Assembly (NCBI RefSeq): GCF_004122035.1
Contig: NZ_SAXA01000018.1
Coordinates: 1 to 64,000 of the forward strand
Length of the DNA: 64,000 nt
Direction of reading: 5' to 3'
Origin: Ancylomarina salipaludis
GTDB lineage: Bacteria; Bacteroidota; Bacteroidia; Bacteroidales; Marinifilaceae
In this document: positions 47,618-64,000 of the stretch, piece by piece
Position numbering within the stretch: position 1 is the first letter of the stretch
Layout of the letters: the number at the start of each line of letters is the position of its first letter
Made by a program: the position numbers and the translations under genes
Notes under the pieces: generated by a model
What the model saw: only the letters and a program-made list of their open reading frames with translations
Told to the model about the DNA's origin: nothing
The model's database searches: none

Positions 47618-47705
47618 ATTGATTGTTAAATTATTATATCTCACTTTTCATCATTGCCCTCACGTTACCACACGATCAGACTTACCATATTCAATGCAAC
47701 TGAGT

Positions 47706-49904
47706 TTAATTGTTTTCCAGTTGAATTAAAAGCTGCTTTTCGTTCATGTCTTTACAGCGATCAAAAAAGGAAACAACATTATTCCATTCTGATTTATCTA
47801 AGTGATTTGATTTTATTTCTTGTTCAAAACGCACTTTTGAATCCCCTGCTGTCGTATCAACGATACAATTCATTTTAAAGTTTTCATCTTCAAAATGGCT
47901 TGACAAGTTTTCCAGACCACTGAGTTTATAAGTTTCAGGAATTTTAATTTTAATCTCATGAGAAATGGTATTACTACCGTCGAAATGAATATCCAGATGT
48001 CTATCTTTCTCCAAATCTGCTTTATTAATTCCACGTTTTGAAAATTTACCTATCGATAAAAACAGATTCTCACCTGCCGAAACAAGAGGCTCACCTGTCT
48101 CCCACTTAAGTCTAAATTTCAAATCTTCATTCTCAAACCACCGACCTGATGAAATAAGCTCAAACTCCAATACTTTAGGTTGATTTATCCCAAAGAAATA
48201 TTCCAATTGCTTTTCCATTTTTTTCAGTCTAAGCTTATCTCCTTCTTCCAATTGTATGGCTAATTTCTCTTGAAAATTTCGATAGGCATCCAAATCTTTC
48301 CTTTTACCTCTATCCTCTATATACTCGCCATATTCAGCAGATTTAAATTCTCGGTGATAAACGGCACGATTCAGAACAACTGAATCCCATTGCTGCTTGG
48401 CCAATCCTGAAATATTAAATTCAGATACAATTTCCAATTTTGAATTCTCATAATCAAGCGAAAGTTCAGATTGAATATCAATATCCACTTTTCCTCGCTT
48501 ACCAAGTGGTATTTCAATTTCCTTTACATTGGGGTTTTCTGCCAGTATTGGAACAGCATAAGCCTTAACCCCTCTAAAATAATCTGAAATCAGGTTTGGA
48601 AACGAATTTAAATTCAGGTCAGTTATGAAAATTGGCTTGTCAGAACATTTTACATGTAACCCTACACGCAGTTCATCAATAAACAAGAGGTCAGATTCCT
48701 TAGCCAGAGATTTGGGAACCATAAACAGGATATCATGTTCAATCTCATAATATCTAAGCAAACGACTCATTGCTCCTACCAATTTGTTCATATTAAAGTT
48801 ATACCATGAGCCACCATTTTGAGCTTCCATAAATAAAGGCTGTTGACACCAGAATTCACGTAAAAAGAAATAGGCATCGTTCACAATAAGCTCTGGTTTT
48901 ACCATGGCTTTTTTTCCATACTTGTCTTTAATATATTTTTTCAATGACGAATAATAAACCCCATAACCCGGGTTTTGTATTGTTTTAGATAAACCTATTA
49001 CCCCCTTTAAATTCACATCCGATTTTTTTTTCTGAAGGTCTCCCCAAAAATCGGCATAAGCTGGTACAGCTGTAAAAGCTGGCGCAGAATTAAACGCTTG
49101 AAATTTAATGCATGGCAGCTCGGCATAAGGATATGACCAGCCTTGAATCTCTAATTTATCTCTGTCCTGATCAATCATACGATAAGTAAAAACTCTTTTA
49201 TCACCTCCCGTGCTGTCTTCCTGTAATTCCGGGGCTCCATTTACGGATTTACAGTTCAAGTAACATCTTCGGGCAAGTTCAACAGTAAGTTCCTGATGGA
49301 CTATTGGGTAATTATCGTTAATGAAATAACGAATGGGATCAAAAACATAAAATGCATTCATCGCAAACTTTTTTTCAACACAATAGTAGAAGTCTATTAT
49401 ATCTCCCTTTTCCAAATTAGGAATCGCTATTTTATTATACCCAACTTGTGATCTTCGATGAGACACCTCCTCACGCACCTCTTCTGAATTATCAATCAGT
49501 TCTTCTCTTCCGTCTGGCTTAATCAATTTAATTCCATAGTAATACGACACAGAATTTGATAAGAAAATACTGTTATAGCCTCTGTTTTCTGTTTCTCCAA
49601 AAGTGAATTGAGAATAAGCAGTAACTGCATTATCATCCAGAACTTTTATTCTCTTATGCGTATGATATTTCTCCTCTAAAACAGAAATAATGGCTTGTTT
49701 CTTCACCCAATAATTAGTTTCCTTAGCCAGAATAACCGCAGACTCATTATCCCATTTGCCTGGAATGTCAGTCGCCTTCCATTTTTCTGTTGGATTGTCC
49801 CAAAATAGCTTTCGCAACTGAATTTCTCTTAAAGTGTCTTTTTGTCCAAAAGCATTACAGTAGCTAACAAGCAAGATTCCAACTAATAAAATTTTACGTA
49901 CCAT
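47706..49904 (-). CDS. DUF3857-type exported protein with a degenerate transglutaminase-like domain
   Basis: 732 aa with a signal peptide (KILLVGILLVSYCNAFGQ). The N-terminal half is the DUF3857-like beta domain (KIAIPNLEKGDIIDFYYCVEKKF). The middle corresponds to a transglutaminase fold. Where the neighbour has GDCKGMANLLKAM, this protein reads NFNMNKLVGAM, so the catalytic Cys is replaced by Asn. A His (LHVKC) and Asp (FITDL) survive. It is therefore likely non-enzymatic or a partner subunit. It starts 2 bp after the stop of the active paralogue, so the two are co-translated. Confidence 0.8.
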   Translation of the reverse strand: MVRKILLVGILLVSYCNAFGQKDTLREIQLRKLFWDNPTEKWKATDIPGKWDNESAVILAKETNYWVKKQAIISVLEEKYHTHKRIKVLDDNAVTAYSQFTFGETENRGYNSIFLSNSVSYYYGIKLIKPDGREELIDNSEEVREEVSHRRSQVGYNKIAIPNLEKGDIIDFYYCVEKKFAMNAFYVFDPIRYFINDNYPIVHQELTVELARRCYLNCKSVNGAPELQEDSTGGDKRVFTYRMIDQDRDKLEIQGWSYPYAELPCIKFQAFNSAPAFTAVPAYADFWGDLQKKKSDVNLKGVIGLSKTIQNPGYGVYYSSLKKYIKDKYGKKAMVKPELIVNDAYFFLREFWCQQPLFMEAQNGGSWYNFNMNKLVGAMSRLLRYYEIEHDILFMVPKSLAKESDLLFIDELRVGLHVKCSDKPIFITDLNLNSFPNLISDYFRGVKAYAVPILAENPNVKEIEIPLGKRGKVDIDIQSELSLDYENSKLEIVSEFNISGLAKQQWDSVVLNRAVYHREFKSAEYGEYIEDRGKRKDLDAYRNFQEKLAIQLEEGDKLRLKKMEKQLEYFFGINQPKVLEFELISSGRWFENEDLKFRLKWETGEPLVSAGENLFLSIGKFSKRGINKADLEKDRHLDIHFDGSNTISHEIKIKIPETYKLSGLENLSSHFEDENFKMNCIVDTTAGDSKVRFEQEIKSNHLDKSEWNNVVSFFDRCKDMNEKQLLIQLENN

Positions 49905-49906
49905 TT

Positions 49907-51817
49907 TTACAATTTTGTTTCAAACACTATTTTCTGACTTCTGTATTTTTTTTGTTGTTTCAATATATCCAATAAATTCGACAGCTCCTTAGTTGTGAAA
50001 ATTCGATTGGGAATCTGTAATTGGGAAAAATAGCTTACTCTCCCATTACTACTATCAAAACCTGCTTTAAAAGAAACATCATTAAACTGAACCCTAATTG
50101 ACTTTGGTAAGCTTTTCAGATGTAATGTATCAGGTATCTCAAAATCTACTTTCACATTCTCATTAATCGTTTCCTTAAAATACAATTTATTACATTTAAG
50201 TGTATCGATATAAGGATTAAAATAAGGTGTTAAATCAGAAATCCCTAAATAGACTTCATTACCAATTTTTAACAAGGCATTCGATTTTAAAACCCTTGAT
50301 TGCATCACAAAATTCGTATCGCGATTAAATTTAATGGGTAAAGGGTGTATCGAATCAATCTCGCATTGAGCCTCATGATCAAACAAATTAACAATCGCCT
50401 TTTTCTGATCTTCTAATTTTACCGTGGACATAAACTGGAAAAATCGTCTTTGACTTTCACCCAGATACTCGAAACGCATTTCACCTTTAAGGCTTTTCTT
50501 TTTAAGCCCTAATTTCAAGTTATAATTTTTACGATTCGCCGGCATGCCATCTACTTCGATTGTATCGATTATAAACGATTGACCATCTTCAATTAAAACC
50601 TCTTTGGATTGAATTCGTTCTCCACAATCGCCTAAGCGAACATATCTCTCTGTCGCATCCATAAAGATTTTGTCCTCCTTATCAATCAAGGTGCAAATCA
50701 TATGATTATCCACAGCAATTGATGATGTTGCGTAATTATAAGGTAAATCTCGTGTTCCCAACCAGCTTAAGCGTGCATCAAATCCAGCGGCATTTAACAT
50801 GGCTTTTAACAGATTTGCCATCCCCTTACAATCGCCATATTTGTTTTTAAAAACCAAGTCAGCGCTCTGGGGCCTGAACCCATCTATCCCTTTCTCAAAT
50901 GCAATATATCGGATATTATCCTGTACCCAATAAAATATAGAACGGATGCTATCCTGTTTACTGCTTTTATCTTTCAGAATTTCAGGAAGTACAGAGGCGA
51001 AACTTTTTGAATTCAGATCACTATTCCCCAACATTTCTTTGTACCATGCATAGAGATCTTGTGTTGTTTTTAAAATAGGTGTCCATTCTGTTTCCTCCAG
51101 TTGATATGCCTCAGCTGAAAAAAACAAATGAGGTATTTCATGCGGAGCCGAAGGTGAATAGTCACATTGAACCGGAGAAGAGATATGATCAAATTCATAT
51201 CTGATGATCTGATGACCATCGACAGATACAGAATCTGACTTCTGAACTTGTGCCTGATCGAAGTTATAGTCGCGTATGTTTAATTTTAACCAAGTTGGTT
51301 TTATAAGATTAACACGTCTCTTTTTCACAAAAAACTGATTATCTGGAATCATTTCTCGTGTAAAAAAGCGGATGTCATCATAAACCGTCACAATCTTAAA
51401 CTCAATAAATTGATCTTTTTCAGTCACATTCAGCGAAAAATGATAAAATTGACCATCCGTTTGAAAGATATCAGTATCCTTCTGATCCCCAATAACCGGT
51501 TTTACACGTCGATTCCCTTTTGATGATACAATTTTGTACTTCTGAAGAGCTTTGTGTGAATTCGTAAAATAGGTTCTGGTCAACTGTCTACCACACAAGG
51601 GAATTATTTTACACACATCGGTTTTAATCACCCTGGGCATCATCTGATTAGCCTGCTTTTCAAACTCAAAGGTGGTATTCCATTCACTTATTACAGCACT
51701 TTTATCGTCGTTCTCATTCAATATCTGATACCAGGATCTTATATCATTCTGTGCTTTAAGCACACAAACGATACTCAACAAACTTAGGGTCAAACAGATT
51801 TTCTTAATTACATTCAT
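49907..51817 (-). CDS. DUF3857 / transglutaminase-domain exported protein (catalytic triad intact)
   Basis: 636 aa with a signal peptide (KICLTLSLLSIVCVLKAQ). The N-terminal DUF3857 part (to about 260) is followed by a transglutaminase-like papain-fold domain. Its catalytic Cys330 is in YGDCKGM, His372 in AVDNHMI and Asp387 in IFMDATE. The usual preceding segment IFYWVQDNIRYIAFEKGIDGFRPQSA is present. A long C-terminal beta region follows. Such proteins are common in Bacteroidota and are probably periplasmic; substrates are not established. It is first in a two-gene operon with the degenerate paralogue. Confidence 0.88.
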   Translation of the reverse strand: MNVIKKICLTLSLLSIVCVLKAQNDIRSWYQILNENDDKSAVISEWNTTFEFEKQANQMMPRVIKTDVCKIIPLCGRQLTRTYFTNSHKALQKYKIVSSKGNRRVKPVIGDQKDTDIFQTDGQFYHFSLNVTEKDQFIEFKIVTVYDDIRFFTREMIPDNQFFVKKRRVNLIKPTWLKLNIRDYNFDQAQVQKSDSVSVDGHQIIRYEFDHISSPVQCDYSPSAPHEIPHLFFSAEAYQLEETEWTPILKTTQDLYAWYKEMLGNSDLNSKSFASVLPEILKDKSSKQDSIRSIFYWVQDNIRYIAFEKGIDGFRPQSADLVFKNKYGDCKGMANLLKAMLNAAGFDARLSWLGTRDLPYNYATSSIAVDNHMICTLIDKEDKIFMDATERYVRLGDCGERIQSKEVLIEDGQSFIIDTIEVDGMPANRKNYNLKLGLKKKSLKGEMRFEYLGESQRRFFQFMSTVKLEDQKKAIVNLFDHEAQCEIDSIHPLPIKFNRDTNFVMQSRVLKSNALLKIGNEVYLGISDLTPYFNPYIDTLKCNKLYFKETINENVKVDFEIPDTLHLKSLPKSIRVQFNDVSFKAGFDSSNGRVSYFSQLQIPNRIFTTKELSNLLDILKQQKKYRSQKIVFETKL

Positions 51818-52118
51818 TTCTTATCAATTTCCTCACTTATATAAATTATTATGATATAAAATGCAAAAATATATATTAAAACTATTTGATTATGTAGAAA
51901 ACTTAATTTATTAGCATTTATATTGATTTTGTTTAAAAAGATCAAGCTAAAACTGTTCCGGATTAAGATGAAAAACGATTAATCAACTCATGTAAATCAT
52001 TCATCTCCACGATCAATGAATTTTCTTAATCCAATCACGATAAAGACTGGTAAATTGAATCCCACGCTGCCGCAGAATTAGGGGCATTCCCTCTTTATCT
52101 TGTTACAAGATAGCATTC
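51818..52118. other. Intergenic region with a possible gene remnant
   Basis: About 300 bp. The minus strand near 52026-52086 can be read as LRQRGIQFTSLYRDWIKK, which looks like the end of a decayed frame. A 13-codon frame with a GGAG ahead follows at about 51967-52008. Neither is long enough to support a gene. Confidence 0.3.
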
Positions 52119-52688
52119 TCATTCATAAAATTTATCCTTCATCCATTTTAAAGGATTGTTTTTGATGTAATTTCTTATACGACATAAGGATTCATCATTC
52201 CGTATAATATGATCGTAATAACGAGATTGCCATGCAAAATCGGCATGAATTTTTCTGGCATTTATCGTACATATTCGTTTGTATTGATTGATAATAACCC
52301 CTAATGATCCGGGTTGCCATGCATTTGATGCCATCCTTGTGGCAGATACGCCCAATGTAGAGACGCCCAAATTGGACGTCTCTACATAACGTTCATCATG
52401 ACATTCATCATTGGGTTTGTTAATTATTACGATACCATGTACGTGGTTTGGCATAACCACAAATACGTCCAATTCAACAAACGGAAAATGGTTAGGGATT
52501 TCTGACCAATATTTGTGTGCCAGATGTCCAATATCAGACAATTGCATTTCCTCATTTACAATATCACCAAAATAATGTTTGCGACCATGGGTACAAATCG
52601 TTACAAAATACGCAGCATTCCATCCATAATCCCACCCTGGTAAACGAGCTGATGCAATACGGTATTTATTTTGATATTTCTCTGTCAT
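52119..52688 (-). CDS. IS200/Y1-type transposase-like protein with an in-frame palindrome
   Basis: 189 aa. The HUH motif is VMPNHVHGIVII near residues 79-90. The N-terminal GWNAAYFVTICTHGRKHYFGDI and C-terminal YYDHIIRNDESLCRIRNYIKNNP blocks are typical of the REP-associated or IS200-like Y1 family found in Bacteroidota, of a subfamily different from the one at 2455. The stretch ETSNLGVSTLGVSATRMASN between the two catalytic halves is encoded by the palindrome 52356-52386 and its neighbour, so a small repeat has been accommodated without breaking the frame. No flanking REP cluster was seen. Confidence 0.85.
   Translation of the reverse strand: MTEKYQNKYRIASARLPGWDYGWNAAYFVTICTHGRKHYFGDIVNEEMQLSDIGHLAHKYWSEIPNHFPFVELDVFVVMPNHVHGIVIINKPNDECHDERYVETSNLGVSTLGVSATRMASNAWQPGSLGVIINQYKRICTINARKIHADFAWQSRYYDHIIRNDESLCRIRNYIKNNPLKWMKDKFYE
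52356..52386. repeat. Nearly perfect 31-bp palindrome with GTAGAGACG arms
   Basis: TGTAGAGACG (52356-52365) and CGTCTCTACA (52377-52386) are perfect arms. Inside, CCAA and TTGG also pair, leaving one C/A mismatch and a 1-nt loop. It lies inside the transposase reading frame. GTAGAGACG palindromes are familiar as dispersed repeats in Bacteroidota genomes. Confidence 0.75.
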
Positions 52689-54519: not shown

Positions 54520-55095
54520 TTATGGATAACATAGCACCCGCTGTTGTAGGGCGTTTAAATTCATTTTTTTTCCTGTTTGATCAATGTAAAACCAGTTTTC
54601 GCTTTCCCATCTTTTATGCTCATCTTCTGGAATAATTCTACAATCATTCGAAACCTTTGCTTTGCCATTTTTAAAAGGAAACGCGCAATCGAATTGTGGG
54701 ACTATTATAATTTCACCGTACTTGTTTGCATAACCAATTTTTCCATTTTTTTTGATTCTGAAAAGTCCCTCCGAAATAGGGTCAGGACCATTGTCAAACC
54801 AAAAGATTTCGAATAATTCCTGATCATTCTTGTCAATTGCTATTAACCCTCCTTGTTTCCGCAAAACTATCGCATAATTTCTAAGAGTATCTGTGTAACA
54901 ATAGTGATATTTTCCAATTGGAATTATTGTATCACCAGCAATATTTACATATCCACTTTCAACGCCAACCTCGTCAAATTCTCCAACAAACACTTTTATT
55001 AAGTCGTCATTTTTTTGCTGTTGACCATACCCGCAAACAGAAACGAAAAATATTAATGCTATTAATATTAATCTGTAATGTCTTTTGTTCCTCAT
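54520..55095 (-). CDS. Exported WG-repeat protein
   Basis: 191 aa from the ATG at 55095, giving a signal peptide (YRLILIALIFFVSVCGYGQ). The frame runs 60 bp further, but that part translates the adjacent palindromic spacer and is unlikely to be coding. The mature protein has several WG-type beta repeats: GYVNIAGDTIIPIGKYHYC, LIAIDKNDQELFEIFW, GKIGYANKYGEIIIVPQFDCAFPF and GKAKVSNDC. WG-repeat proteins are common and mostly uncharacterised. It stands at the boundary between the secreted-protein block and the cassette-like region. Confidence 0.82.
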   Translation of the reverse strand: MRNKRHYRLILIALIFFVSVCGYGQQQKNDDLIKVFVGEFDEVGVESGYVNIAGDTIIPIGKYHYCYTDTLRNYAIVLRKQGGLIAIDKNDQELFEIFWFDNGPDPISEGLFRIKKNGKIGYANKYGEIIIVPQFDCAFPFKNGKAKVSNDCRIIPEDEHKRWESENWFYIDQTGKKMNLNALQQRVLCYP

Positions 55096-55113
55096 ATTAC
55101 TATAGGGGGAATT

Positions 55114-55246
55114 ACACACAACAGCTCGGTTATGAATAGTTGCGTGATTTAGCACTTAACTTTGCAAGTACACACCAAACTGAAAATACGCTAGGATTTT
55201 CAGAAGTAGGCGATAACAAGCAATTACTTATAGCCGAGCCCTTGTA
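55114..55246. repeat. attC-like imperfect palindrome A
   Basis: The left arm ACACAACAGCTCGG (55116-55129), continuing TTATGAATAGTTGC, pairs with right-arm CCGAGCCCTTGT (55234-55245), preceded by GCAATTACTTATAG. About 22 of 29 arm positions match, with a large loop. Located between the WG-repeat and RidA-like genes. Confidence 0.6.
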
Positions 55247-55264
55247 TTTTAGTGCTCTTAAAAT

Positions 55265-55657
55265 TTATTCCGATTTTACTACTGCATCTGCTTCAATTTC
55301 TACTAACCATTCAGGATTAATAAATCTTGTTACTTGCATAACGGTATCTACTGGTTTGATTTTCTTAAAATATTCGGCTCGCACTTTTATAACTTCTTCC
55401 CAATCTTCAATTCTGGTCAGCATAATGCGGGTTCTAACAACATCTTCTAATCCAGATCCTGCCCGTTCTAGAGCATCTTTAATTATTTCCAAACACCTAC
55501 GAGTTTGAACGCCAGGATTACCAATACCAACAGTTTTTCCATCGGGTCCTACAGGAGCAGTTCCACCAACAGAAATATATGGACCTACTCTTACGGCTCG
55601 ACTAAAACCGATTACATCTTCTAATGGATTTCCGTTTGAAATAAGTTCTCTTTTCAT
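55265..55657 (-). CDS. RidA-family protein lacking the catalytic Arg
   Basis: 130 aa, RidA/YjgF/UK114 trimeric fold. It has VGPYISVGGTAPVGPDG near residue 25-40, GVQTRRCLEIIKDALERAGSGLEDVV and the final WLVEIEADAVV strand. In true RidA enzymes an Arg in a R-S-C-V-E-V segment hydrolyses enamines or imines; here the corresponding stretch is PVDTVMQV, so the Arg is Asp. The protein is probably one of the non-deaminase Rid groups, with a small ligand or another activity. It lies between spacers A and B. Confidence 0.87.
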   Translation of the reverse strand: MKRELISNGNPLEDVIGFSRAVRVGPYISVGGTAPVGPDGKTVGIGNPGVQTRRCLEIIKDALERAGSGLEDVVRTRIMLTRIEDWEEVIKVRAEYFKKIKPVDTVMQVTRFINPEWLVEIEADAVVKSE

Positions 55658-55702
55658 AAATTAGACATTTTTGATTAGTATCCGTCTTCAGTCAAGCATT
55701 AA

Positions 55703-55847
55703 ACACAACGGTTCTGCCGTATGAAGTGGCCCCGCCATGCGTGTGGTATTTTCGCTTTCTTGTTTGTACTGCAGCTCACGCAGGAGCTGAACTTTCAAAT
55801 CCCACCAAGCCAGAGCTATTTTACGATGGCTTGTTGCGCCGTTGTAT
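55703..55847. repeat. attC-like imperfect palindrome B
   Basis: Ends are ACACAACGG (55703-55711) and CCGTTGTAT (55839-55847), inverted. A CTTGTTGCGC element lies next to the right end, also present at spacer C (56544-56553). The right end stops 4 bp from the stop codon of the GyrI-like gene, as expected for a recombination site directly 3' of a cassette gene. Confidence 0.65.
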
Positions 55848-55850
55848 ATT

Positions 55851-56396
55851 TTATTCAATAATTTCTTTTCTGTACTCTATTTTTTTATTTGGGACATCGT
55901 AAATTTCCATAACAAACCCCTCTTGTTTATTATGATTTTCCTTCACAAATTTCTCAATTGCAGGGTACACTTTCATTAGTCCAAATAAGATTGAAAGTTT
56001 TCCTTTATTTGGAAATTCGGCTATTATATACTTTTTTTCAGGAAATGTTTTTACTTTAAAATCATTTTGTATTTGAGTCAATTTAGAACTATCCTTTTTC
56101 TCAATAACACAACCGATTTCAGAACGCAACTTACTTTTTTCCACTTCTTTGGGATTGTCATAATAAATTCCAAATCCTTTAAACGTTTCAATTTCATATT
56201 TATCGAGCAATGAATGATAAATTTCATCCATTAATTTTGCACTTTGAGCATAGTCACCAGTCATTTGTCTATATACAAGAATTTCTCCTCCTTGTTTTTC
56301 AATATGGCAATTTACTTTTTTAAAACCTCCATAATAAGCCCAAACAATTATGGTAATCATTAAAATAACCCCTACAATAATCAATATAATTTTCAT
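55851..56396 (-). CDS. Membrane-anchored GyrI-like (effector-binding domain) protein
   Basis: 181 aa with one N-terminal membrane helix (IILIIVGVILMITIIVWAYYGGF), then a GyrI/AraC-type effector-binding domain: ILVYRQMTGDYAQSAKLMDEIYHSL, GFGIYYDNPKEVEKSKLRSEIGCVIE and YIIAEFPNKGKLSILFGLMKVYPAIEKFV. Such domains bind hydrophobic small molecules or inhibit gyrase, and are sometimes found as stand-alone, membrane-tethered forms. No DNA-binding domain is present. Flanked by spacers B and C. Confidence 0.85.
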   Translation of the reverse strand: MKIILIIVGVILMITIIVWAYYGGFKKVNCHIEKQGGEILVYRQMTGDYAQSAKLMDEIYHSLLDKYEIETFKGFGIYYDNPKEVEKSKLRSEIGCVIEKKDSSKLTQIQNDFKVKTFPEKKYIIAEFPNKGKLSILFGLMKVYPAIEKFVKENHNKQEGFVMEIYDVPNKKIEYRKEIIE

Positions 56397-56441
56397 TTTT
56401 TTTCTTTTTGAGAATAATATTAGTGTGTCATATCTATATGT

Positions 56442-56522
56442 GACACAACAGCTAAGCTATGCGTAGTATGCCTTGTGTTGCGCCTGCGACAAGGCATATT
56501 AGGTATGAACCATTGTTGTGTA
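56442..56522. repeat. attC-like palindrome C
   Basis: ACACAACA (56443-56450) is inverted by TGTTGTGT (56514-56521). The inner arms TATGCCTTGT and ACAAGGCATA pair perfectly around GTTGCGCCTGCG. The structure is a strong nested hairpin. A CTTGTTGCGC element follows at about 56544. Confidence 0.7.
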
Positions 56523-56561
56523 TTCGGTGCTACTTTATGATAACTTGTTGCGCTTTTGTTT

Positions 56562-57224
56562 TTATTGTCTAGATTCATAAGTTTCAATTCCTAATCTAGA
56601 CTCAGTTATAAATTTCTTAGCTAATTCCTTACTATTAATTTGGCTAATAAATCTCACTCTGTCTTCTTCTGATTGATCACCCAGCCATATCCCAAATATT
56701 ATATTTCTAGAAACTTCACTATGTTCAGTCTTTAGTTTACTTAGACAAGCACAGTATAATTTATTTAGTCTCTGAATAATCTTATTGTCAACAACTACTA
56801 ATGCACTGTCAAAGTCATTATACTTGTCAATAATCAAATTTGATATTTCATTTAACTCCTGAAGTTTTTGGTCAACTTTATCCAATTCATCATTATTTAT
56901 TTCGCAATTATAAACCCAATCGCAAGGAGACCATTTTAGTTCATGTTTCAAATCATCAACAGATACATTTGTGTAGGAGGAATTGTCTTTATATTCCTTG
57001 ATAACTTTGTCTAGTCCTGAATATGTGTTTGCAGTAATTCCAGCATAACTATATTCACCCGAGGTAAAAATCCCAAAAGAGTATAATTCACCGTCTTTTA
57101 TATCCTCAAGTAATGTATTGAATGCTTTTAATAAACCTTGGTATAGATTCTGGTTAAAAGAATTGTCATCGAAAATTTCATCAACCTTTTTATACTGCTT
57201 TTTTAAAAAGAACTTTCTAAACAT
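56562..57224 (-). CDS. DUF4303-family protein
   Basis: 220 aa. The DUF4303 pattern is present: GELYSFGIFTSGEYSYAGITANTYSGLDKV near residues 45-74 and LKWSPCDWVYNCEINNDELDKV near 110-130, with a C-terminal helical half. The family appears in immunity-like or SMI1/KNR4-like gene neighbourhoods, but its function is unknown. There is no signal or membrane segment. It lies downstream of the DJ-1 gene with only 59 bp between. Confidence 0.78.
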   Translation of the reverse strand: MFRKFFLKKQYKKVDEIFDDNSFNQNLYQGLLKAFNTLLEDIKDGELYSFGIFTSGEYSYAGITANTYSGLDKVIKEYKDNSSYTNVSVDDLKHELKWSPCDWVYNCEINNDELDKVDQKLQELNEISNLIIDKYNDFDSALVVVDNKIIQRLNKLYCACLSKLKTEHSEVSRNIIFGIWLGDQSEEDRVRFISQINSKELAKKFITESRLGIETYESRQ

Positions 57225-57266
57225 GTTTTGTATTTACTTTAAATATAATATGAGTTTTCAAATGAA

Positions 57267-57274
57267 GCCCAACG
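57267..57274. repeat. Single attC-type core GCCCAACG
   Basis: GCCCAAC matches the R-type core RYYYAAC of integron attC sites and lies in the 59-bp gap between the DJ-1 and DUF4303 genes. No palindromic partner was seen, so it may be a deleted site or chance. Confidence 0.3.
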
Positions 57275-57283
57275 TCGACTTTA

Positions 57284-57862
57284 TTATTCACTCCATATCC
57301 CATTTTTGAATAATTGAAACCATTTTTCAATTTCATCATCAGATTTCAATTCTGTTTTCTTAAAAATTTCAGTCGCAAATTCAATTGGGGCAATTCCATT
57401 CGCTGTAATGATATTCTTGTCGGTCTCTGCTAATTTATTTTGGTAATTTTCTTGTCCTCCATACTCTGGAACAATAGCTTTTAAATAACTCAAATCGTTG
57501 CTTGTATGCTTCAGATTATCTAAAATCCCCAACTGTCCTAAATAAAAAGTTGCCCCACAAATTGCAGCAATTGTTTTCCCCTTTTCAAATAGTTCTGAAA
57601 CCAGATTGTTGATCGTTGTTATTTCTCTTTTCTCCCAAGCTACTCCTCCCGGAAGAATTAACATCTCCACGTCTTCAATTTCCAATTCATTGAGTGATGT
57701 CGTTGGAATCACTTGTAAGCCACCCATTGAAGTTACTTCATTTCCAGTCTCCGAGAAATAAATCAAATCAAAACGTTCATCTTTAGCAATCTCCGGACCT
57801 AGATAAGCTATTTCCCAATCCGAATACCCATCAAATAGAAACACATATATTTTTTTTTTCAT
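57284..57862 (-). CDS. DJ-1/PfpI family protein
   Basis: 192 aa. The fold shows KIYVFLFDGYSDWEIAYLGPEI at the start, including the conserved Glu17, MLILPGGVAWEKR, and the nucleophile elbow AAICGATFYLG with Cys102. A typical GIAPIEFATEI end follows. These proteins are cysteine hydrolases or glyoxalase/chaperone-like; the substrate is unknown. Its 5' leader (57861-57902) is nearly the same as that of the next gene, the YdeI-like gene. Confidence 0.88.
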   Translation of the reverse strand: MKKKIYVFLFDGYSDWEIAYLGPEIAKDERFDLIYFSETGNEVTSMGGLQVIPTTSLNELEIEDVEMLILPGGVAWEKREITTINNLVSELFEKGKTIAAICGATFYLGQLGILDNLKHTSNDLSYLKAIVPEYGGQENYQNKLAETDKNIITANGIAPIEFATEIFKKTELKSDDEIEKWFQLFKNGIWSE

Positions 57863-57902
57863 ATTATTTCCTTTTTAAGTTTGTGTGCGGTCTTTTTTAG
57901 TT
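57861..57902 (-). promoter_or_regulatory. Shared 5' leader, copy 1 (before the DJ-1 gene)
   Basis: On the plus strand ATATTATTTC, then CTTTTTAAGTTTGTGTGCGG, then TCTTTTTTAG. The copy at 58502-58543 matches about 34 of 43 positions. Both lie immediately 5' of a minus-strand start codon, so on the coding strand each supplies a GGAAATAAT-like sequence before the ATG. Confidence 0.6.
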
Positions 57903-57933
57903 AATAAATAAAGTCCCGACTGTAGTTTTACTG

Positions 57934-58500
57934 TTAATAGTATTTGTCAATTCCCCCAAATCCTTTAATCAGTTTATTTTCTTTTGTTTTGTCGATAAAG
58001 TTGTTTAGACGCTTTTCAAATTCCTCTGGTCTTTTTCTTGCACTATCAATATATGCAATTCTAATTCGTTTATATGGCTCAGAAAAGGCTTGATAATTTT
58101 CCCAAACAATCTTATCTGACTCCAATTTCTTTAATATATATTCCGGAAAAACGAATTTTTGTTGAATTATTTGTAAAACTTCCTTCTCAATTGAGTTATG
58201 AATCAAATTGTTTTCAAAAAGCCATTTCAATCGTTCAATGTTTGGTTGTGAGAAGGTCGAGTTTTTTCTTCTCTTACAAAATCTCTGAATAGTAGTCTCT
58301 TCGTTTAGTGATTTAACAGTACTATCAATCCATCCAAAACAAAGGGCTTCTTCAACCGCATCATTATACAAGATTCGTTTTTTACCAGTCTTCTTAACAG
58401 GATACTCCAACCAAATAGCATCTTCTGTCTCAAAATTAGTTTCGAGCCACTTTCGCCATTCTTTTCTATCAATGAAATATTTGGTTGTTAGTTCGTTCAT
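57934..58500 (-). CDS. YdeI/OmpD-associated family protein
   Basis: 188 aa. It has the family start FIDRKEWRKWLETNFETEDAIWLEY, then ALCFGWIDSTVKSLNEETTIQRFCKRRKNSTFSQPNIERLKWL, the usual YdeI core, and a C-terminal YKRIRIAYIDSARKRPEEFEKRL helix. Members have been linked to bacteriocin or polymyxin protection without an established mechanism. It shares a 42-bp 5' leader with the DJ-1 gene. Flanked on the upstream side by spacer F. Confidence 0.87.
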   Translation of the reverse strand: MNELTTKYFIDRKEWRKWLETNFETEDAIWLEYPVKKTGKKRILYNDAVEEALCFGWIDSTVKSLNEETTIQRFCKRRKNSTFSQPNIERLKWLFENNLIHNSIEKEVLQIIQQKFVFPEYILKKLESDKIVWENYQAFSEPYKRIRIAYIDSARKRPEEFEKRLNNFIDKTKENKLIKGFGGIDKYY

Positions 58501-58501
58501 T

Positions 58502-58543
58502 ATATTATTTCTTCTTTGAGTTTATGCACGGTCTTTTTTTAGC
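58502..58543 (-). promoter_or_regulatory. Shared 5' leader, copy 2 (before the YdeI-like gene)
   Basis: ATATTATTTC, then TTCTTTGAGTTTATGCACGG, then TCTTTTTTTAGCT. It is closely related to 57861-57902 and sits in the same position relative to the start codon, immediately beside attC-like spacer F. Confidence 0.6.
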
Positions 58544-58546
58544 TGA

Positions 58547-58617
58547 CACACAACGGATGGGCATGCTGCGAGAATCCGACCTTGCGGAGCCCACTATGCT
58601 CCGCTATTAGCACTCGT
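58547..58617. repeat. attC-like palindrome F
   Basis: The left end is ACACAACGGATGGGC (from about 58547). Inside, GCGGAGC (58584-58590) and GCTCCGC (58598-58604) form a perfect hairpin. The right arm GCTATTAGCACTCGTA is a weaker match to the left. It lies between the YdeI-like and ClbS-like genes. Confidence 0.55.
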
Positions 58618-58621
58618 ATTT

Positions 58622-59134
58622 TTATGTTTCAGTTAAACTCTTTTTATGTTTCTTGATTTTCTTCATCGCCCAATCATAATGACTGGAAGTAGCAGAAACG
58701 CAATAACTTCCTAAACTCGTTGTTCCAGTCCAGCGGAAATACTTTTTTGTAAATAATTCCTTGTCCGAAAATGAGTCAATTAATTTCATTGCTTCAGCGT
58801 GACTTTTCTCCAAATCTTTCACGGATTTGTCAAATGGCGTTTTTTGATGCTTTTCCCAAAATTCAATGTTCATTTGCGGATAAGTTTTCCAGTTATAGGG
58901 TTCTGGTAAAAAACTCATTTCTTTTCCGGATTGATTTAAGTCAACCCAGTTTAATAAAAGTTGATGCCATTCATATAAATGCACTAAAATGTCTCGAATA
59001 TTTTTATCTCTGTCCTCAAAGTCAAATGTTTTGTCTTGCTCTTCCTTTGTCATAGAACTAATCAGAGTGAATAATTTTTCAAAATTCAGTTTACTCGCCT
59101 CTTTCAATTGTTCTTTTGTCCTTGGTCTAGCCAT
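58622..59134 (-). CDS. ClbS/DfsB-family four-helix bundle protein
   Basis: 170 aa. The N-terminal ARPRTKEQLKEASKLNFEKLFTLISSMTKEEQ and the DRDKNIRDILVHLYEWHQLLLNWV helix are typical of the DinB-like ClbS/DfsB family. The C-terminal SLGSYCVSATSSHYDWAMKKIKKHKK is also typical. ClbS protects from the genotoxin colibactin by hydrolysing it; other members have unknown roles. The His residues HLYEWH and SSHYDW are conserved. Flanked by spacers F and G. Confidence 0.87.
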   Translation of the reverse strand: MARPRTKEQLKEASKLNFEKLFTLISSMTKEEQDKTFDFEDRDKNIRDILVHLYEWHQLLLNWVDLNQSGKEMSFLPEPYNWKTYPQMNIEFWEKHQKTPFDKSVKDLEKSHAEAMKLIDSFSDKELFTKKYFRWTGTTSLGSYCVSATSSHYDWAMKKIKKHKKSLTET

Positions 59135-59197
59135 TATTTCGTTTTTTTGAATTATTCTATTTCACTAAATCCAATACAGCTTGCAGCATTCTTTTAT

Positions 59198-59334
59198 ATG
59201 AGTACTAAGCAGTCTTGCTAAGTTGCTTGGGCGATTTCGAAGCACTTCCCTATCAAACCGTTGCTATTTTTATTAAATGTACTCATGATAAATTTACCAC
59301 AACACGCCGCATTACTTATGACACATTGTTAGGT
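59198..59334. repeat. attC-like palindrome G
   Basis: ATGAGTAC (59198-59205) is perfectly inverted by GTACTCAT (59279-59286). Next to the stop of the HerA gene, TTGTTAGGT (59326-59334) contains GTTAGGT, a full match to the integron core GTTRRRY. Its orientation is opposite to that of the cores in most other spacers. Downstream of HerA, upstream of the ClbS gene. Confidence 0.45.
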
Positions 59335-59343
59335 TTTCGTGCT

Positions 59344-61500
59344 TTATTCTTTTGGTTCAACATCAGGTTCAGTGGGGTTGTATTTCTCACCCTTCTCCCA
59401 AGCTTCTGCAATTTTTTCATAGTTGGGAAAGTCTTTTGTCAATTCCATAGTCCAGTTTTCAATAAATTTAGGATTATTACTATTAGGTCTTGGACTTGCC
59501 GTATTCATTCTAGCCTGAACAGGTGTCCTTACTGCATCACCCATAATTACAACATGTTGTTGTGGTAAAATTGGTAATTGTTGTAAAATATCCTCATTCG
59601 CAGCAGAAACTAATTGTCTAACGTACTTTTGGTCTTCTGGATTTTGAAGTCTATGAATAATAAAAGAGTTGCATTGCGATAATACTGTTTTTGACAATTC
59701 GGAAGGTCGTTGACTAGAAACAAGTAAAGAAATACCATATTTACGACCTTCTCGTGCAATTCTCTCAAATACTTTTTTAGCTATTGATTCTCTATCTCCT
59801 CTATTCTTCTCTGGAATGTAATTTTGTGCTTCTTCCAAGGCTATTACCATTGGAAGTTTACCTCTATCATTTTCGGGAAAACGAGAAACAAAGTCTAAAA
59901 TAAGTCGACCTATTAAACCCGTGATTGTTTCTAAAACTTCATAAGGCAATAAAGACATGTCAATAATTGTTATCTGACTTGGCTTATTTGCAGCGAGTTT
60001 TTCAATTTCTTCTTTACCTAATTGTTTCTTATAAAAATCAGTAAATAAGTCTGTTTCTTCAGTTTTATATATTTTACAAAAATCACCTAGAATGAAAGAA
60101 ATAAATTTTGCTAGAATATTAGGAATCTCCTCTTTCTGATTTAATAATAATGGTTGTGAAATTCTTTCATCACCTAAATATGACTGCAATCTCAATCTAA
60201 GAGTTGATACAAATTCCCTAAGCCTATTTCCTGAATTTTCTTGTTCACTTATTGCCTCATCAAAGAATCTTTCCAATAGACCTTGAAAATTAAAATAGAT
60301 AGGCAGATCAATATTGCGTTCTTTTGTTATTTCAATCTTGTTAGCAGAGGAATAATACAACGACAATTCCCTTCTTAATATCTCTGAACTTTCCGTTAAT
60401 ACTGCAGAACTTACATTTCCATTTACATATTGACCAGGCTTAGATAGCTTATCCTTTTCTTTTAAAAGTTCCCTCAATGCACTCAATAAATTCGTTTTAT
60501 CAAAGTCAGTATCTAAAGCTGCTAATTCAATTCCGAAGTTATCTAACCCATCATAAATTGTATTTTTTATTTTAAAATCATTCTCTTCACATTCATGAAG
60601 TATAGTTGTCAACCTTGCAATAAAAACTTGTGGTATTAGCTTTTGATTTAATGCTTGTGTTTGATTTTTTGCCAATCCAAGGGCATGTTTAAAAACTGGG
60701 GCTTGTGTACCTGAGGTTGGTTCAAATAGGTAATCAAAGTCAGCAAAGTTCATAAACCAAAAGGGAACTTTCATTCCATCTTTATCTATATGAAATGGAT
60801 TGACTAGTTCGAGATTCTTATATGGAGCTTCTTTCGTTCCTTGAAATGCTTGTTTGTATTCTCCATTTGTATCAAATATAATGACATGTGCATTTTGTAG
60901 CTTCTTCCCATCGTAATCAAAGTCGAATATGCTCTGAATGATAGATGCAAACGTGCAAGATTTTCCTGAACCGGTATTACCAAGTATTGCAGCATGCTTG
61001 CCGAAAAATTTATCCGGATTTATCTTGATTTTATAATCAGAAAATGAAGGTGATGTTCCTATGGGTAAATAATAATCATCTTCAAAATTTATTCCCTCTG
61101 TGTCTTTCTTTCTCTTTTGGTCAAAGATATTATCCAAGTCTTGACTTGTTACATACCAAACAGGATTGTCTAGAATAGGATAATTGTAAACACCTTGAAT
61201 ATATTTACCACTATTCTCAATTGTACCAATCATAGTTGCCACCAAGTATCTTGCAGATTTGGTTAAAAATATTGCCTCCTTGTTTTTTGCAATTTCAGTT
61301 TCATCAATTGCTCTAACACTCGTAACCATTGCTACAATTTTATCCGACCCAATTGGAATAATTACGTAAGAATTAATTCTAGCAACTTCAAAAATATCTT
61401 CATAGCCACTTTTATATAAGCTCTTTAAATTATCATCTAGTCGTATGTATGCTCTGAAACTATCAACAGATATCACCTTTCCAATGCTTCTTTCACTCAT
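59344..61500 (-). CDS. HerA-type ATPase of a SIR2-HerA anti-phage system
   Basis: 718 aa, HerA/FtsK-like hexameric AAA ATPase. Walker A is LGNTGSGKSCTFA at about residues 173-185, Walker B is VIALEEAQNYIP near 555, followed by the arginine region KKVFERIAREGRKYGISLLVSSQRPSEL. The N-terminal HAS-barrel-like region includes GKVISVDSFRAYI. It overlaps the SIR2 stop codon by one base (TAATG), so the two are translated in strict coupling. In known SIR2-HerA (Nezha) systems the ATPase and SIR2 subunit form a large complex that depletes NAD+ on phage infection. Assigned by this pairing. Confidence 0.92.
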   Translation of the reverse strand: MSERSIGKVISVDSFRAYIRLDDNLKSLYKSGYEDIFEVARINSYVIIPIGSDKIVAMVTSVRAIDETEIAKNKEAIFLTKSARYLVATMIGTIENSGKYIQGVYNYPILDNPVWYVTSQDLDNIFDQKRKKDTEGINFEDDYYLPIGTSPSFSDYKIKINPDKFFGKHAAILGNTGSGKSCTFASIIQSIFDFDYDGKKLQNAHVIIFDTNGEYKQAFQGTKEAPYKNLELVNPFHIDKDGMKVPFWFMNFADFDYLFEPTSGTQAPVFKHALGLAKNQTQALNQKLIPQVFIARLTTILHECEENDFKIKNTIYDGLDNFGIELAALDTDFDKTNLLSALRELLKEKDKLSKPGQYVNGNVSSAVLTESSEILRRELSLYYSSANKIEITKERNIDLPIYFNFQGLLERFFDEAISEQENSGNRLREFVSTLRLRLQSYLGDERISQPLLLNQKEEIPNILAKFISFILGDFCKIYKTEETDLFTDFYKKQLGKEEIEKLAANKPSQITIIDMSLLPYEVLETITGLIGRLILDFVSRFPENDRGKLPMVIALEEAQNYIPEKNRGDRESIAKKVFERIAREGRKYGISLLVSSQRPSELSKTVLSQCNSFIIHRLQNPEDQKYVRQLVSAANEDILQQLPILPQQHVVIMGDAVRTPVQARMNTASPRPNSNNPKFIENWTMELTKDFPNYEKIAEAWEKGEKYNPTEPDVEPKE

Positions 61501-62951
61501 TATTCTGTGTCTTTAGTAGGTTCCGTATTAGAAGCTTTATTTCTCAAAAGCTCGTTCAAAGTATTTGCAACATTTTCGTTATTGTCAATATTGTTGAAAT
61601 TAGGCATAAGAGTGTCTGCAAAAGTCAGGAAGTCACCAAAAAACTCTCCTTCAAGTATTATTATTCTTGGATCATTAAGTTCTTTCAGGTTAAGAATGTA
61701 GTCGTTTCGTGTACCTTGAAAGTCAATTACAATAAGAGTGAAAGTAGGGTTTGATAATGCCTGATAGATAATATCGTTAAAATGGTCGTCACCAAATGAA
61801 TATCCAACCGTAACGAGCACCGATTGAGATTGAGTTATGGTTGAAGCAAATTGTCTAAATAGTTCAGAGTATGGAAGGTCAAGTGTGTACGACTTCTTTA
61901 CAGCAGTGGGATAGATAATAATTTCTCCCTTTTTCTTTAGAGATTCTATTAATTCTAGCGATTTCTCTTCAATACCATATAGATTGTTTGCATCCCTTGA
62001 TTCAGAGTTAATCCAAGATAATGAACCATGTAATTTATAATACCGTACTACTTTTTCGATTCTTTGAACTTTACCCGAAGTGGTAGAACCTGGGTAAAAA
62101 ATGTCATATTCAAATGTTTCTGGTTTAAATAACCTTTTATGAAATCCTGAAAAACCATCTATATAATGAACCCCTAGTTTATCAAAAGCGTATTCAAAAG
62201 CTAAATCATAATTAGCTGTAAAAATATTTGCTCGCCTCAAATTCAAAGGTCTTTGAAGAAGAGCCTTTAAGAATTTTTCATGAAAGATATATTTGCTTCT
62301 TGATTCAAGTAGTTCACCTTGTGCTATTTCTTTTGGGAACTGGCTTGCTTTTTTTCTGTCGATTATTGTTTGAGAAACTGGTCTGTTTTCCAAATTACAT
62401 ACATTAAATAACCCTTCCTTAATCGCAGTAATTAATTCAGCATACTTATCAGTTCTTACTTTACTTTTATCTTCATTAAAAACAAAGTCCGTAGCGATTA
62501 AGAAATTTAAAACCTTTTCATATTCAATAGCTATTTCCTTTGATTCAATATCTCGGACAATATCATCTACAATTTCAAATTTCCATTTTCTTTTATCTTC
62601 AAAGATTTTAGTGTCATCAATTAGATTCTCCTTTCCGTATTTTAATAATTCACCTTGAAGTTGTTTAATCACAAAAACGAAATGAGAAAATATTCCAGTT
62701 CCTTCAGGATCTTGTTCTTTTATGTAACCCTCTACTTCTAAAGGAAAATTTCTGATTGCCACTGCCCCCAAATGAATTGACGTACCCGAACCAAACAAAA
62801 AACTAACATTGTCTAATTCAAGGTAATTTTTAAGCATTAACTTGATTTTGTCAATGATTTTACCTTGGTCTAAACCTTCAGCTGTCCAATCAGCTAACTT
62901 ATCTGTACTTCCAAAGAGAACTTTATTTTTTACTGGGTCAAAATGTGTCAT
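61500..62951 (-). CDS. SIR2-like NADase subunit of a SIR2-HerA anti-phage system
   Basis: 483 aa with a SIR2-like NAD-binding core. Motifs in order: FLFGSGTSIHLGA near residues 51-63, ANIFTANYDLAFEYAF near 243-258, YYKLHGSLSW near 303-312 and VTVGYSFGDDHFND near 378-391. The middle of the protein (65-235) is a helical insert typical of defence SIR2 proteins rather than deacetylases. It is the first gene of the pair, upstream of herA, and its stop overlaps herA by one base. The function is inferred to be NAD+ depletion on infection, leading to abortive infection. Confidence 0.92.
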   Translation of the reverse strand: MTHFDPVKNKVLFGSTDKLADWTAEGLDQGKIIDKIKLMLKNYLELDNVSFLFGSGTSIHLGAVAIRNFPLEVEGYIKEQDPEGTGIFSHFVFVIKQLQGELLKYGKENLIDDTKIFEDKRKWKFEIVDDIVRDIESKEIAIEYEKVLNFLIATDFVFNEDKSKVRTDKYAELITAIKEGLFNVCNLENRPVSQTIIDRKKASQFPKEIAQGELLESRSKYIFHEKFLKALLQRPLNLRRANIFTANYDLAFEYAFDKLGVHYIDGFSGFHKRLFKPETFEYDIFYPGSTTSGKVQRIEKVVRYYKLHGSLSWINSESRDANNLYGIEEKSLELIESLKKKGEIIIYPTAVKKSYTLDLPYSELFRQFASTITQSQSVLVTVGYSFGDDHFNDIIYQALSNPTFTLIVIDFQGTRNDYILNLKELNDPRIIILEGEFFGDFLTFADTLMPNFNNIDNNENVANTLNELLRNKASNTEPTKDTE

Positions 62952-62993
62952 TCAGTTTCATTTAATTAATTGGTTAGCTTTTTTTGGCATGAA

Positions 62994-63123
62994 GCACAAC
63001 GTTTGACAATATGAAACGGTTGGGTTTGCGGAGTGCGTTCATATCCACCAAGGTAAACGATGGAGCGAGAACTGAAGCTTCGCAAGCCCCTGAACCCCAA
63101 CTGTTTTATATTGTGTTGTACAA
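62994..63123. repeat. attC-like palindrome H
   Basis: The left arm includes GCACAACG then ACAATATGAAACGGTTGGG (63006-63024). The right arm CCCCAACTGTTTTATATTGT (63096-63115), then GTTGTACAACG, matches it in reverse over about 25 positions. A large loop of about 70 nt separates the arms. It is the longest and cleanest palindrome in this region, between the SIR2 gene and the CxxCxGxG gene. Confidence 0.7.
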
Positions 63124-63128
63124 CGTGT

Positions 63129-63359
63129 TTAATCAAATTTTGGAATCGTCTTAATACCAATTCCATTGCAAGAAGGACAAATTGATTCCGTATCATATCG
63201 TATATATTTGTGACCTGTTCCTTGACAATAAGCACATTCATCATGATTGGAAGGTACTTCTAGTTTTCCAGCACCTTCACATATCTGACATATTGTTTCT
63301 GTATCTGTTCTAGCATATTTTCGTCCAGTTCCTTTACAATAAGCGCAAGCTATAACCAT
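63129..63359 (-). CDS. Stand-alone CxxCxGxG (DnaJ-type) zinc-binding protein
   Basis: 76 aa containing four CxxCxGxG repeats: CAYCKGTG, CQICEGAG, CAYCQGTG and CPSCNGIG. The protein is thus two copies of a roughly 38-residue unit, the same fold as the zinc-finger arm of DnaJ, but no J domain is attached. It may bind unfolded protein or RNA or act as a redox chaperone; the function is unknown. It starts 2 bp after the stop of the membrane zinc-ribbon gene, so the two form an operon. Confidence 0.87.
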   Translation of the reverse strand: MVIACAYCKGTGRKYARTDTETICQICEGAGKLEVPSNHDECAYCQGTGHKYIRYDTESICPSCNGIGIKTIPKFD

Positions 63360-63361
63360 AA

Positions 63362-63898
63362 TTATTGTTTTTTATTAAATTTAAAACTATCTCCACTTTT
63401 ACTAAATGAGCTTGGTGAGTCTCTTTTTTCAAATGAATTACTATATAAACTTTTTTGGAATGCCAATCGTTTATTGTCGAGCTTATACAACCCGTTTTCT
63501 AATATGTATACTTTATTCTCAAAATTGATTTTTTTTCTTAGATTCTTTTCAAAGCAATTCGAACATTTTATTAAAGAATCACTTTTATCCTTGATATAGT
63601 AGTGAGTATCTTTATTACAAACTCCGCAAAATAAAGCAATGTCATTATATGGAACTGTCTTTTTAACTCCTGATGTTAAATCTGTTTCGATTATATCGGA
63701 AATCATACCTGCAAATAATTCTTTTGCAGCCCCTCCAGGTAACAGGCTACTGGCAAGGTCAAAAAGAAAGACTGCTCCAGCATTTTTCGCTTTCGACACA
63801 GTATATTTGACAACACTACCAACAATGCCAATTATTGGTGATATTATTGGGTCGACTAGACTGACTATTGCCATTAATATATTAGACCACCAGCTCAT
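63362..63898 (-). CDS. Small membrane protein with a zinc-ribbon-like motif
   Basis: 178 aa. The N-terminal 30 residues are hydrophobic (ILMAIVSLVDPIISPIIGIVGSVVKY), a likely membrane or surface helix, and a second weak hydrophobic segment follows. Two Cys pairs, CGVC near residue 91 and CSNC near 112, suggest a zinc ribbon. The C-terminal third is charged and Ser/Lys-rich. No family recognised. It is the first gene of a two-gene unit with the DnaJ-type zinc protein. Confidence 0.75.
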   Translation of the reverse strand: MSWWSNILMAIVSLVDPIISPIIGIVGSVVKYTVSKAKNAGAVFLFDLASSLLPGGAAKELFAGMISDIIETDLTSGVKKTVPYNDIALFCGVCNKDTHYYIKDKSDSLIKCSNCFEKNLRKKINFENKVYILENGLYKLDNKRLAFQKSLYSNSFEKRDSPSSFSKSGDSFKFNKKQ

Positions 63899-63919
63899 AT
63901 TCAGTATTTATTACATGTT

Positions 63920-64000
63920 ATACAACGGTCACTTGTATGTGGTCGGGCTGGATTTCTGAGAGAAATCGTGTCAGACCTCTAAAACCCCCGCCTGACATAT
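63920..64000. repeat. attC-like palindrome I (partial at window end)
   Basis: It begins ATACAACGGTC, and inside GATTTCT (63951-63957) and AGAAATC (63961-63967) form a perfect hairpin. The second arm runs off the end of the window. It follows the same pattern as palindromes A-H. Confidence 0.5.

Follow-up and report, generated by a model that had tools for sequence, protein, structure and literature searches.

A probable integron-type cassette array in Ancylomarina salipaludis and its relation to integrase-led arrays of Bacteroidota

Integrons of the IntI/attC type, such as class 1 integrons and the Vibrio superintegron, hold single-gene cassettes in an array on one strand, with hairpin sites (attC) that have R and L arms, a variable top, a GTT/AAC core and a more stable bottom strand. 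Each cassette has ends complementary to one another, a pairing that in attC may reach 9-11 nt according to one passage of Bouvier 2009 (PMC2727003), which also lists extrahelical bases on the R''-L'' arm as an attC feature. The integrase is a tyrosine recombinase with conserved R, K, H, R, H and Y residues; a passage of Escudero 2016 (PMC4792948) takes its I2 domain and the extrahelical bases to be adaptations to sites on single strands, and imagines an Xer-like ancestor gaining I2. Integrons are hardly reported from Bacteroidota, and a passage of PMC9024848 names Salinibacter ruber M1 as one complete integron in Bacteroidetes proper. Here we describe a block of genes in Ancylomarina salipaludis, in a stretch of 64,000 nucleotides (the window) that makes up the first 64,000 bases of a 67,222-bp contig, C10, in a genome of 4.15 Mb. 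The block (54.3-67.2 kb) extends past the window as far as the contig end; its genes and site-bearing spacers, the genes of unrelated families and all on the minus strand, occupy about 54.5-66.7 kb. It is probably an array of cassettes belonging to a Bacteroidota system of the integron type, and the enzyme moving the cassettes is most likely an integrase encoded elsewhere in the same genome, without the part that defines known integron enzymes. The system has all the likenesses to IntI/attC integrons listed above for array, sites, cassette ends and catalytic residues, and most likely works like an integron, but it departs from the classical family in three features: the additional domain of IntI, the GTTRRRY core and the extrahelical bases.

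An earlier reading of the window, made from its letters only (the sequence-only reading), had described a cassette run without an integrase. For C10 this is correct, as all five PF00589 matches in the genome lie on other contigs, but it does not hold for the genome. The advised search for intI or another tyrosine recombinase found no IntI above the TIGR02249 cut-off, whether in the genome itself or in four relatives from the genus, and IntI was therefore rejected as the driver of the array; it did find a 362-aa tyrosine recombinase on the 12-kb contig C20 (locus L039, 6329-7417), from which small unrelated genes on the same strand run to the contig end. A roughly 190-bp repeat, CTAACAAAAGCTAAATTTCATGGGCG ... 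CGCCCACGCAACTTAGCAAGACCGTTAG (the A-type site), recurs in the C20 spacers at 79-84% identity among shorter, unlike sites. Two intervals between C20 sites (L039 1863-2330 and 3420-3960) hold no gene of at least 80 aa and appear to be gene-less cassettes. Two genomes assembled as single contigs also have an integrase with a same-strand array, of about 11 genes in G016 and about 16 in G010, and in the latter one cassette of about 1 kb occurs in three copies at 99.8-100% identity (1030 bp at 100%, 1035 bp at 99.8%). G010 also encodes two proteins closely related to the integrase (548 aa, L136 1990-3636; 481 aa, L138 15679-17124), each followed by same-strand genes. The integrase is transcribed in the cassette direction in L039, L130/L139 and L136, as in the chromosomal integrons of Treponema, where passages of PMC3607928 describe transcription toward the array; those, however, are described there as intI systems, and the enzyme here is not IntI. 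Reading of the loci for an attI found a G|TT start 30-120 nt past the integrase stop in several of them. Among the genus relatives, G002 has the integrase at 74% identity, G001 only 78- and 79-aa open frames carrying its C-terminal part, and G003 and G004 have best TIGR02249 matches of only 2.6e-20 and 2.8e-20. G004 nevertheless contains a small array, in which three A-type repeats accompany an OmdA gene that shares 84% identity with the OmdA gene of the window; tandem repeats (L126 4320-4571) lie close to this array.

These arrays are also marked by their cassette ends. In the integrase-led arrays, the nine bases that open an intact cassette (GTT and six more) are reverse-complementary to the nine that close it (six and AAC). 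Over ten cassettes of C20, G016 and G010, with sites located by the A-type repeat motif only and with one pair included that skips an unrecognised site, 56 of 60 free positions matched between a cassette's own ends versus 25 of 60 with the next cassette, and none of 20,000 permutations reached 56. In C20 alone, with sites picked by eye, the counts were 46/48 versus 14/48 (permutation fraction 2e-5). A strict search for chains of cassettes with perfect nine-base ends, 60-260 nt apart, found runs of 14 cassettes in the first of the two G010 arrays (shuffle maximum 3), 5 in G016 (shuffle maximum 3) and 4 in C20 (shuffle maximum 2). When ends were matched loosely, shuffles overlapped the real arrays (L126, 3.3 vs. 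a shuffle maximum of 4.3; L130, 11.5 vs. 12.3), and since the end-matching test is symmetric between strands, the opposite strand is no valid control. At 1e-40, a profile of the integrase family (A1, built on 11 rows) had matches in 254 of the 296 phylum genomes searched, Xer proteins included; by hand count, the best E was 1e-59 or lower, above the Xer-like rows, in about 94 of the 296. For 20 chosen integrase loci, most of which lie on contigs that are complete or very long, the 15-kb stretch behind the integrase was compared with 40 shuffles. Chains of at least four were found behind eight (L171, 7; L172, 4; L174, 7; L175, 5; L176, 4; L178, 4; L183, 8; L184, 6), seven of which beat all 40 shuffles, while eight XerD control loci gave chains of 1 or 2 and none of at least four.

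Site architecture departs from that of attC in several respects. In 65 strict cassettes, a set that includes a few chance pairs (those of L039 among them), the core is GTTR in 60 and GTTRRRY in only four; six free bases follow GTT. The seventh base is C or A in 61 cassettes, the next one A in 59 and the one after that T in 46. The sequence-only reading had placed the cores one position off the classical consensus, which is true of the GTTGTGY ends in the window, although the wider system keeps only GTTR. The median site length, with 18 flanking bases counted in, is 137 (55 sites), and lengths of 115-180 nt are frequent. The sites fold better than shuffles, most of all on the bottom strand (mean z of -2.23 for the bottom and -1.58 for the top in 52 sites; -0.34 in 48 control windows), and their L arms score 26.1 versus 13.7 for arms taken from different sites. 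The arms of 35 distinct sites contain 98 mismatches, of which 60 place A on the left arm opposite C and four are reversed, an asymmetry seen in 9/9 loci (binomial 7e-14, with sites that are not independent of each other). These left-arm A/C mismatches of the top strand read as T/G wobbles on the bottom strand. Mismatches of the C/T type show no bias (5 vs. 6), and in the same 35 sites bulged, extrahelical bases show no left-arm excess (12 left, 18 right). The A/C versus T/G mismatches stand here where IntI/attC integrons have a bias of extrahelical bases.

The C20 integrase belongs to a family in which the catalytic residues R215, K240, H304, R307, H330 and Y339 are invariant in 11/11 rows and from which the long insertion that the IntI of L006 carries before the second histidine motif is absent in 11/11. 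Given this absence and a TIGR02249 score of 202.5 bits against a cut-off of 265, the protein is not an IntI. It scores 218.6 bits, against a cut-off of 220, with NF040815 (“site-specific tyrosine recombinase/integron integrase”), the best model for four of five non-IntI integrases scanned (218.2-221.9 bits); some family members are accordingly annotated with the word integron. This NCBIfam model, however, is an archaeal XerA equivalog whose name is silent on arrays. Sequence relatives in the PDB are XerA-type enzymes first, followed by IntI4 (2a3v). In a 43-row tree with a midpoint root, ten Xer rows split from the family plus IntI with a support of 100/100, and the three IntI rows, two of them deviating in composition, form one clade, attached at a fork within the family that the tree leaves unresolved; 10% of bootstrap trees set the family apart on one side of a branch. 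The C20-type enzyme thus groups with IntI rather than with the sampled Xer rows. It resembles in this the “integron-like” subgroup of tyrosine recombinases (Smyshlyaev 2021, PMC8138268), compared here by description only: passages of that paper state that the insertion is not fully conserved in the subgroup, and describe neither arrays nor sites for members without it. Integration of CTX-phi by XerCD likewise uses a folded single-strand site without extrahelical bases and an enzyme without I2, as passages of Escudero 2016 (PMC4792948) have it, but involves neither an array nor a dedicated integrase. In open-licence PMC text, preprints aside, we found no published account of arrays such as these, and a subscription or preprint description may exist. 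We give about even odds to a separate, IntI-independent integron lineage across Bacteroidota (and one contig of Spirochaetes), in which folded single strands would be recombined without I2 and an A/C-to-T/G strand code of its own would replace extrahelical bases. Such a lineage could be either the stock that gave rise to IntI integrons or a parallel solution. The question of integron origin becomes testable with an enzyme that is found with arrays of hairpin sites, has no I2 and groups with IntI.

The window array is placed in this integrase-led system by the homology of its sites rather than by its own ends, because its longest strict chain is 1 and its own-end permutation test gave p = 0.06. 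We name the spacers g0 (66562-66700, beyond the window) through g9, with g1-g9 as the nine gaps of the window. By BLAST, g9 (55094-55264, minus strand) is 91.7% identical over 120 bp to a site of the integrase-led array of G010 (E 2e-43), and g7 (56397-56561, minus strand) is 82% identical over 61 bp to another (E 1e-8). The hybrid g3 (59135-59343, minus strand) is related in its left part to a third G010 site (L136:8187-8273, 76%; E 1e-9) and in its right part (59212-59260) to the long A-type site of C20 (E 2e-8). A weaker match joins g0 to the stretch that in G016 separates the integrase from its first cassette (87% over 31 bp, E 2e-4), and g0 is possibly an attI remnant. For g2, g4, g5, g6, g8 and g10 there was no BLAST match among the loci compared. 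A search of 56 family genomes with the array DNA, in which up to five candidates per genome were scored in a list that is not exhaustive, gave matches in 28, the own genome included. OmdA relatives at 82-84% identity are present in G004, G636, G001 and G016, DJ-1, DUF1706 and pieces of HerA in other genomes, and g1, g2, g3, g7, g8 and g9 were each matched singly in other genomes or contigs. Among the candidates scored outside the window itself, none matched over more than about 670 bp or across two cassettes, and in the 55 other genomes none went beyond one gene or one site, the closest approach to shared order being an OmdA copy and a g3-like site 2.8 kb apart in G001. Matches limited to one gene or site are the pattern expected from single-cassette turnover. 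The proposal of an integron-type cassette run in a Bacteroidota host is thus supported both by the homology of g9, g7 and g3 to integrase-adjacent sites and by the gene-by-gene turnover that the sequence-only reading had suggested looking for.

A decayed IntI integron of the ordinary kind, that is, a cluster of attC sites lacking integron-integrases (CALIN) whose IntI was lost or never assembled, is an unlikely account of the array. A true though truncated IntI frame exists in the same order (G024, 367 bits, the only one among 30 relatives), and the window cores deviate from GTTRRRY at a single position. Nevertheless, the search of the own genome and the genus relatives came up empty for IntI above cut-off, the window sites are related to sites adjoining a non-IntI integrase, and neither the rarity of the GTTRRRY core nor the lack of extra bases on the left arm fits attC. 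A related but different capture system, which the sequence-only reading had offered as its alternative, comes nearer the truth than a plain CALIN.

We regard as quite improbable, more so than a CALIN, that this is a defence or accessory-gene island assembled when similar repeats between genes underwent ordinary homologous recombination, with the recombinase as a bystander. Genes and sites have indeed separated from each other, and g3 combines two site types, as such an origin would have it. It leaves unexplained, however, the nine-base complementarity of own ends in cassettes whose ends differ mutually, as well as the strand asymmetry. Dispersed palindromes moved without gene capture by a transposase, as repetitive extragenic palindromes (REP) are by REP-associated tyrosine transposases (RAYT), are the least credible source, for although a gene that we take to be RAYT/IS200-like (52119-52688) lies 2 kb from the array and has a relative of 77% over 285 bp near the G004 array, the sites here are 80-200 nt long, stand one at each gene junction and all in gene orientation rather than dispersed regardless of genes, have ends complementary across the gene, and form chains that follow a tyrosine recombinase.

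Several results count against an integron-type origin of the window array or against the breadth of the system. Besides the chain of 1, which is inside the shuffle range, and the own ends matching barely above permuted ones (eight cassettes), almost no site is left in g5 and g6. The OmdA copies in other genomes have the gene of the window without its site, so that gene and site were not kept together over that distance, and no excision or insertion pair was found between close strains. Behind 12 of the 20 integrases chains were of 1 or 2 only; the chain of 4 in L176 falls below its shuffle maximum of 6, that of L175 starts 8.8 kb downstream of the integrase, and L178 and L183 each contain one chance-looking link. 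Folding is a weak point, as only g2, g7 and g9 among g0-g9 clearly beat shuffles, on the bottom strand (z -2.32, -2.12 and -2.75). The array of C20 reaches its contig start and that of C10 its contig end in compatible orientations, and the two might be one array, although a physical join of C10 and C20 could not be demonstrated. The likeness of g0 to an attI and the 500 bp without genes that lie past it would rather suggest that the C10 array is separate and without an integrase.

For an integron-type array that, by its sequence, looks partly decayed, the following mechanism would account for what is seen. A cassette would be a gene, rarely two, whose first bases (GTT and six free ones, then usually C or A, A, T) match its last in reverse complement. 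The integrase of C20 (L039 6329-7417) would act on the folded bottom strand of the site, with strand exchange at G|TT as by IntI on attC, and would pair that strand with a double-stranded site behind the integrase gene. Single cassettes could in this way be inserted, or excised as a circle. The choice of strand would be set by the A/C (top) versus T/G (bottom) mismatches and not by bulged bases. The same process may have filled the window array, now partly decayed and remote from its integrase. If such arrays are active, a phylum of gut, marine and soil bacteria has a means of gene capture that searches for IntI and classical attC pass over, and its cassettes include anti-phage genes.

Between 55265 and 63898 the array contains eight genes and a zinc pair of two open reading frames (ORFs), all on the minus strand and of unrelated families. 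Starting from the window end, the zinc pair (63362-63898, 178 aa, with no Pfam match; 63129-63359, 76 aa, with DnaJ-type CXXCXGXG zinc repeats slightly below the Pfam cut-off) precedes a SIR2-domain gene (61500-62951) and a HerA-type ATPase gene (59344-61500), which abut and form a single cassette with two genes. By domain matches and PADLOC (E 7e-99 and 4e-180), these two are a known anti-phage pair, SIR2-HerA, so that the anti-phage system attributed to the array is indeed aboard. There follow genes of the DUF1706 (58622-59134; a family match with single-gene relatives in other genomes), OmdA/YdeI (57934-58500; the gene whose 82-84% copies have other flanks), DJ-1/PfpI (57284-57862; a family match with relatives in other genomes) and DUF4303 (56562-57224; family match) families, a GyrI-like gene (55851-56396) with a weak match, below cut-off, to Cass2, an integron-associated effector-binding protein, and a RidA/L-PSP gene (55265-55657; family match). 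The last likely cassette is a WG-type gene for a secreted protein (54520-55155); its listed ORF start overlaps g9, and the likely start is at about 55094. It would be the ninth gene to reach the nine intact genes first counted alongside the pair, of which the common strand and the unrelated families stand as described.

The gaps measure 59-209 bp (60-210 bp as first given). Palindromes with inverted ends had been seen in most gaps; a GTTGTGY or GTTGTAT right end is present in 6/9 (g1, g2, g4, g7, g8 and g9), an AAC-type left end together with a right end in only 4/9 (g1, g2, g7 and g8), and g3, g5 and g6 depart from the pattern. All sites lie on the minus strand. Site g1 (63899-64000, and on to 64040 on the contig) has the ends ACACAAC and GTTGTAT and is also found at G000:C2:8499-8584 and on C34; g2 (62952-63128), with TACAAC ... 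GTTGTGC at 114 nt core-to-core, has the best-preserved L stem and relatives on C53 and C4 of the same genome (G000). The partly decayed g4 (58501-58621) ends in GTTGTGT, g5 (57863-57933) is by pattern and folding degenerate and without a clear site, and g6 (57225-57283) has a right end only, GTTGGGC, within GTTGGGCTTCAT. In g7, ACACAAC ... GTTGTGT is preceded by a second left end, GCGCAAC, and g8 (55658-55850), with ACAACG ... CCGTTGTGT, has a relative in G628:C6. Sites g1 (in its L stem), g2, g7 and g9 have two A/G-type mismatches apiece, and over the seven sites of the window array tested these stand at 9 vs. 3.

The pattern GTTGTGYNNMATGC occurs four times in the whole genome, three times in the array (once outside the window, at contig position 66603) and once within a coding gene, C55:16266, which was for that reason rejected as an additional site. 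Its reversed control occurs just once, so the clustering in the array is not chance. As a marker of arrays in 295 genomes of the order it was rejected: it matched in 234, but only one of 20 loci read (L032) looked like a site palindrome, and outside the array it is thus mostly chance. Relatives of the DUF1706 gene number 506, with 80 loci kept; in 27 of these the flanks were read, a few (L049, L053 and L094) showing site-like palindromes upstream and most none. The strict chain test on the 80 loci gave a chain of at least three in L053 only, with doubtful links. On a contig filed as Spirochaetes (L069), a member of the integrase family lies 3 kb before a DUF1706 gene.

The RAYT-type transposase gene adjoins the array, and beyond it a conserved gene pair (47705-51849) flanks the region; in G004 the same pair (91.7% identity) has a cassette array on its opposite side, and the relative of the transposase gene in that genome is near this pair. 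At the other extreme of the array, about 500 bp at the C10 contig end, upstream of g0 (L014 6700-7222), are gene-free and contain REP-like GAGCTTGTCGAG / GTCGAAG repeats. The genome holds more g0-, g1- and g2-like sites on contigs C53 (L220 7118-11606), C4 (L221 9177-9988), C2 (L222 4809-8584) and C34 (L223 9809-9947), and on both C53 and C4 the g0-like stretch precedes the g2-like one.

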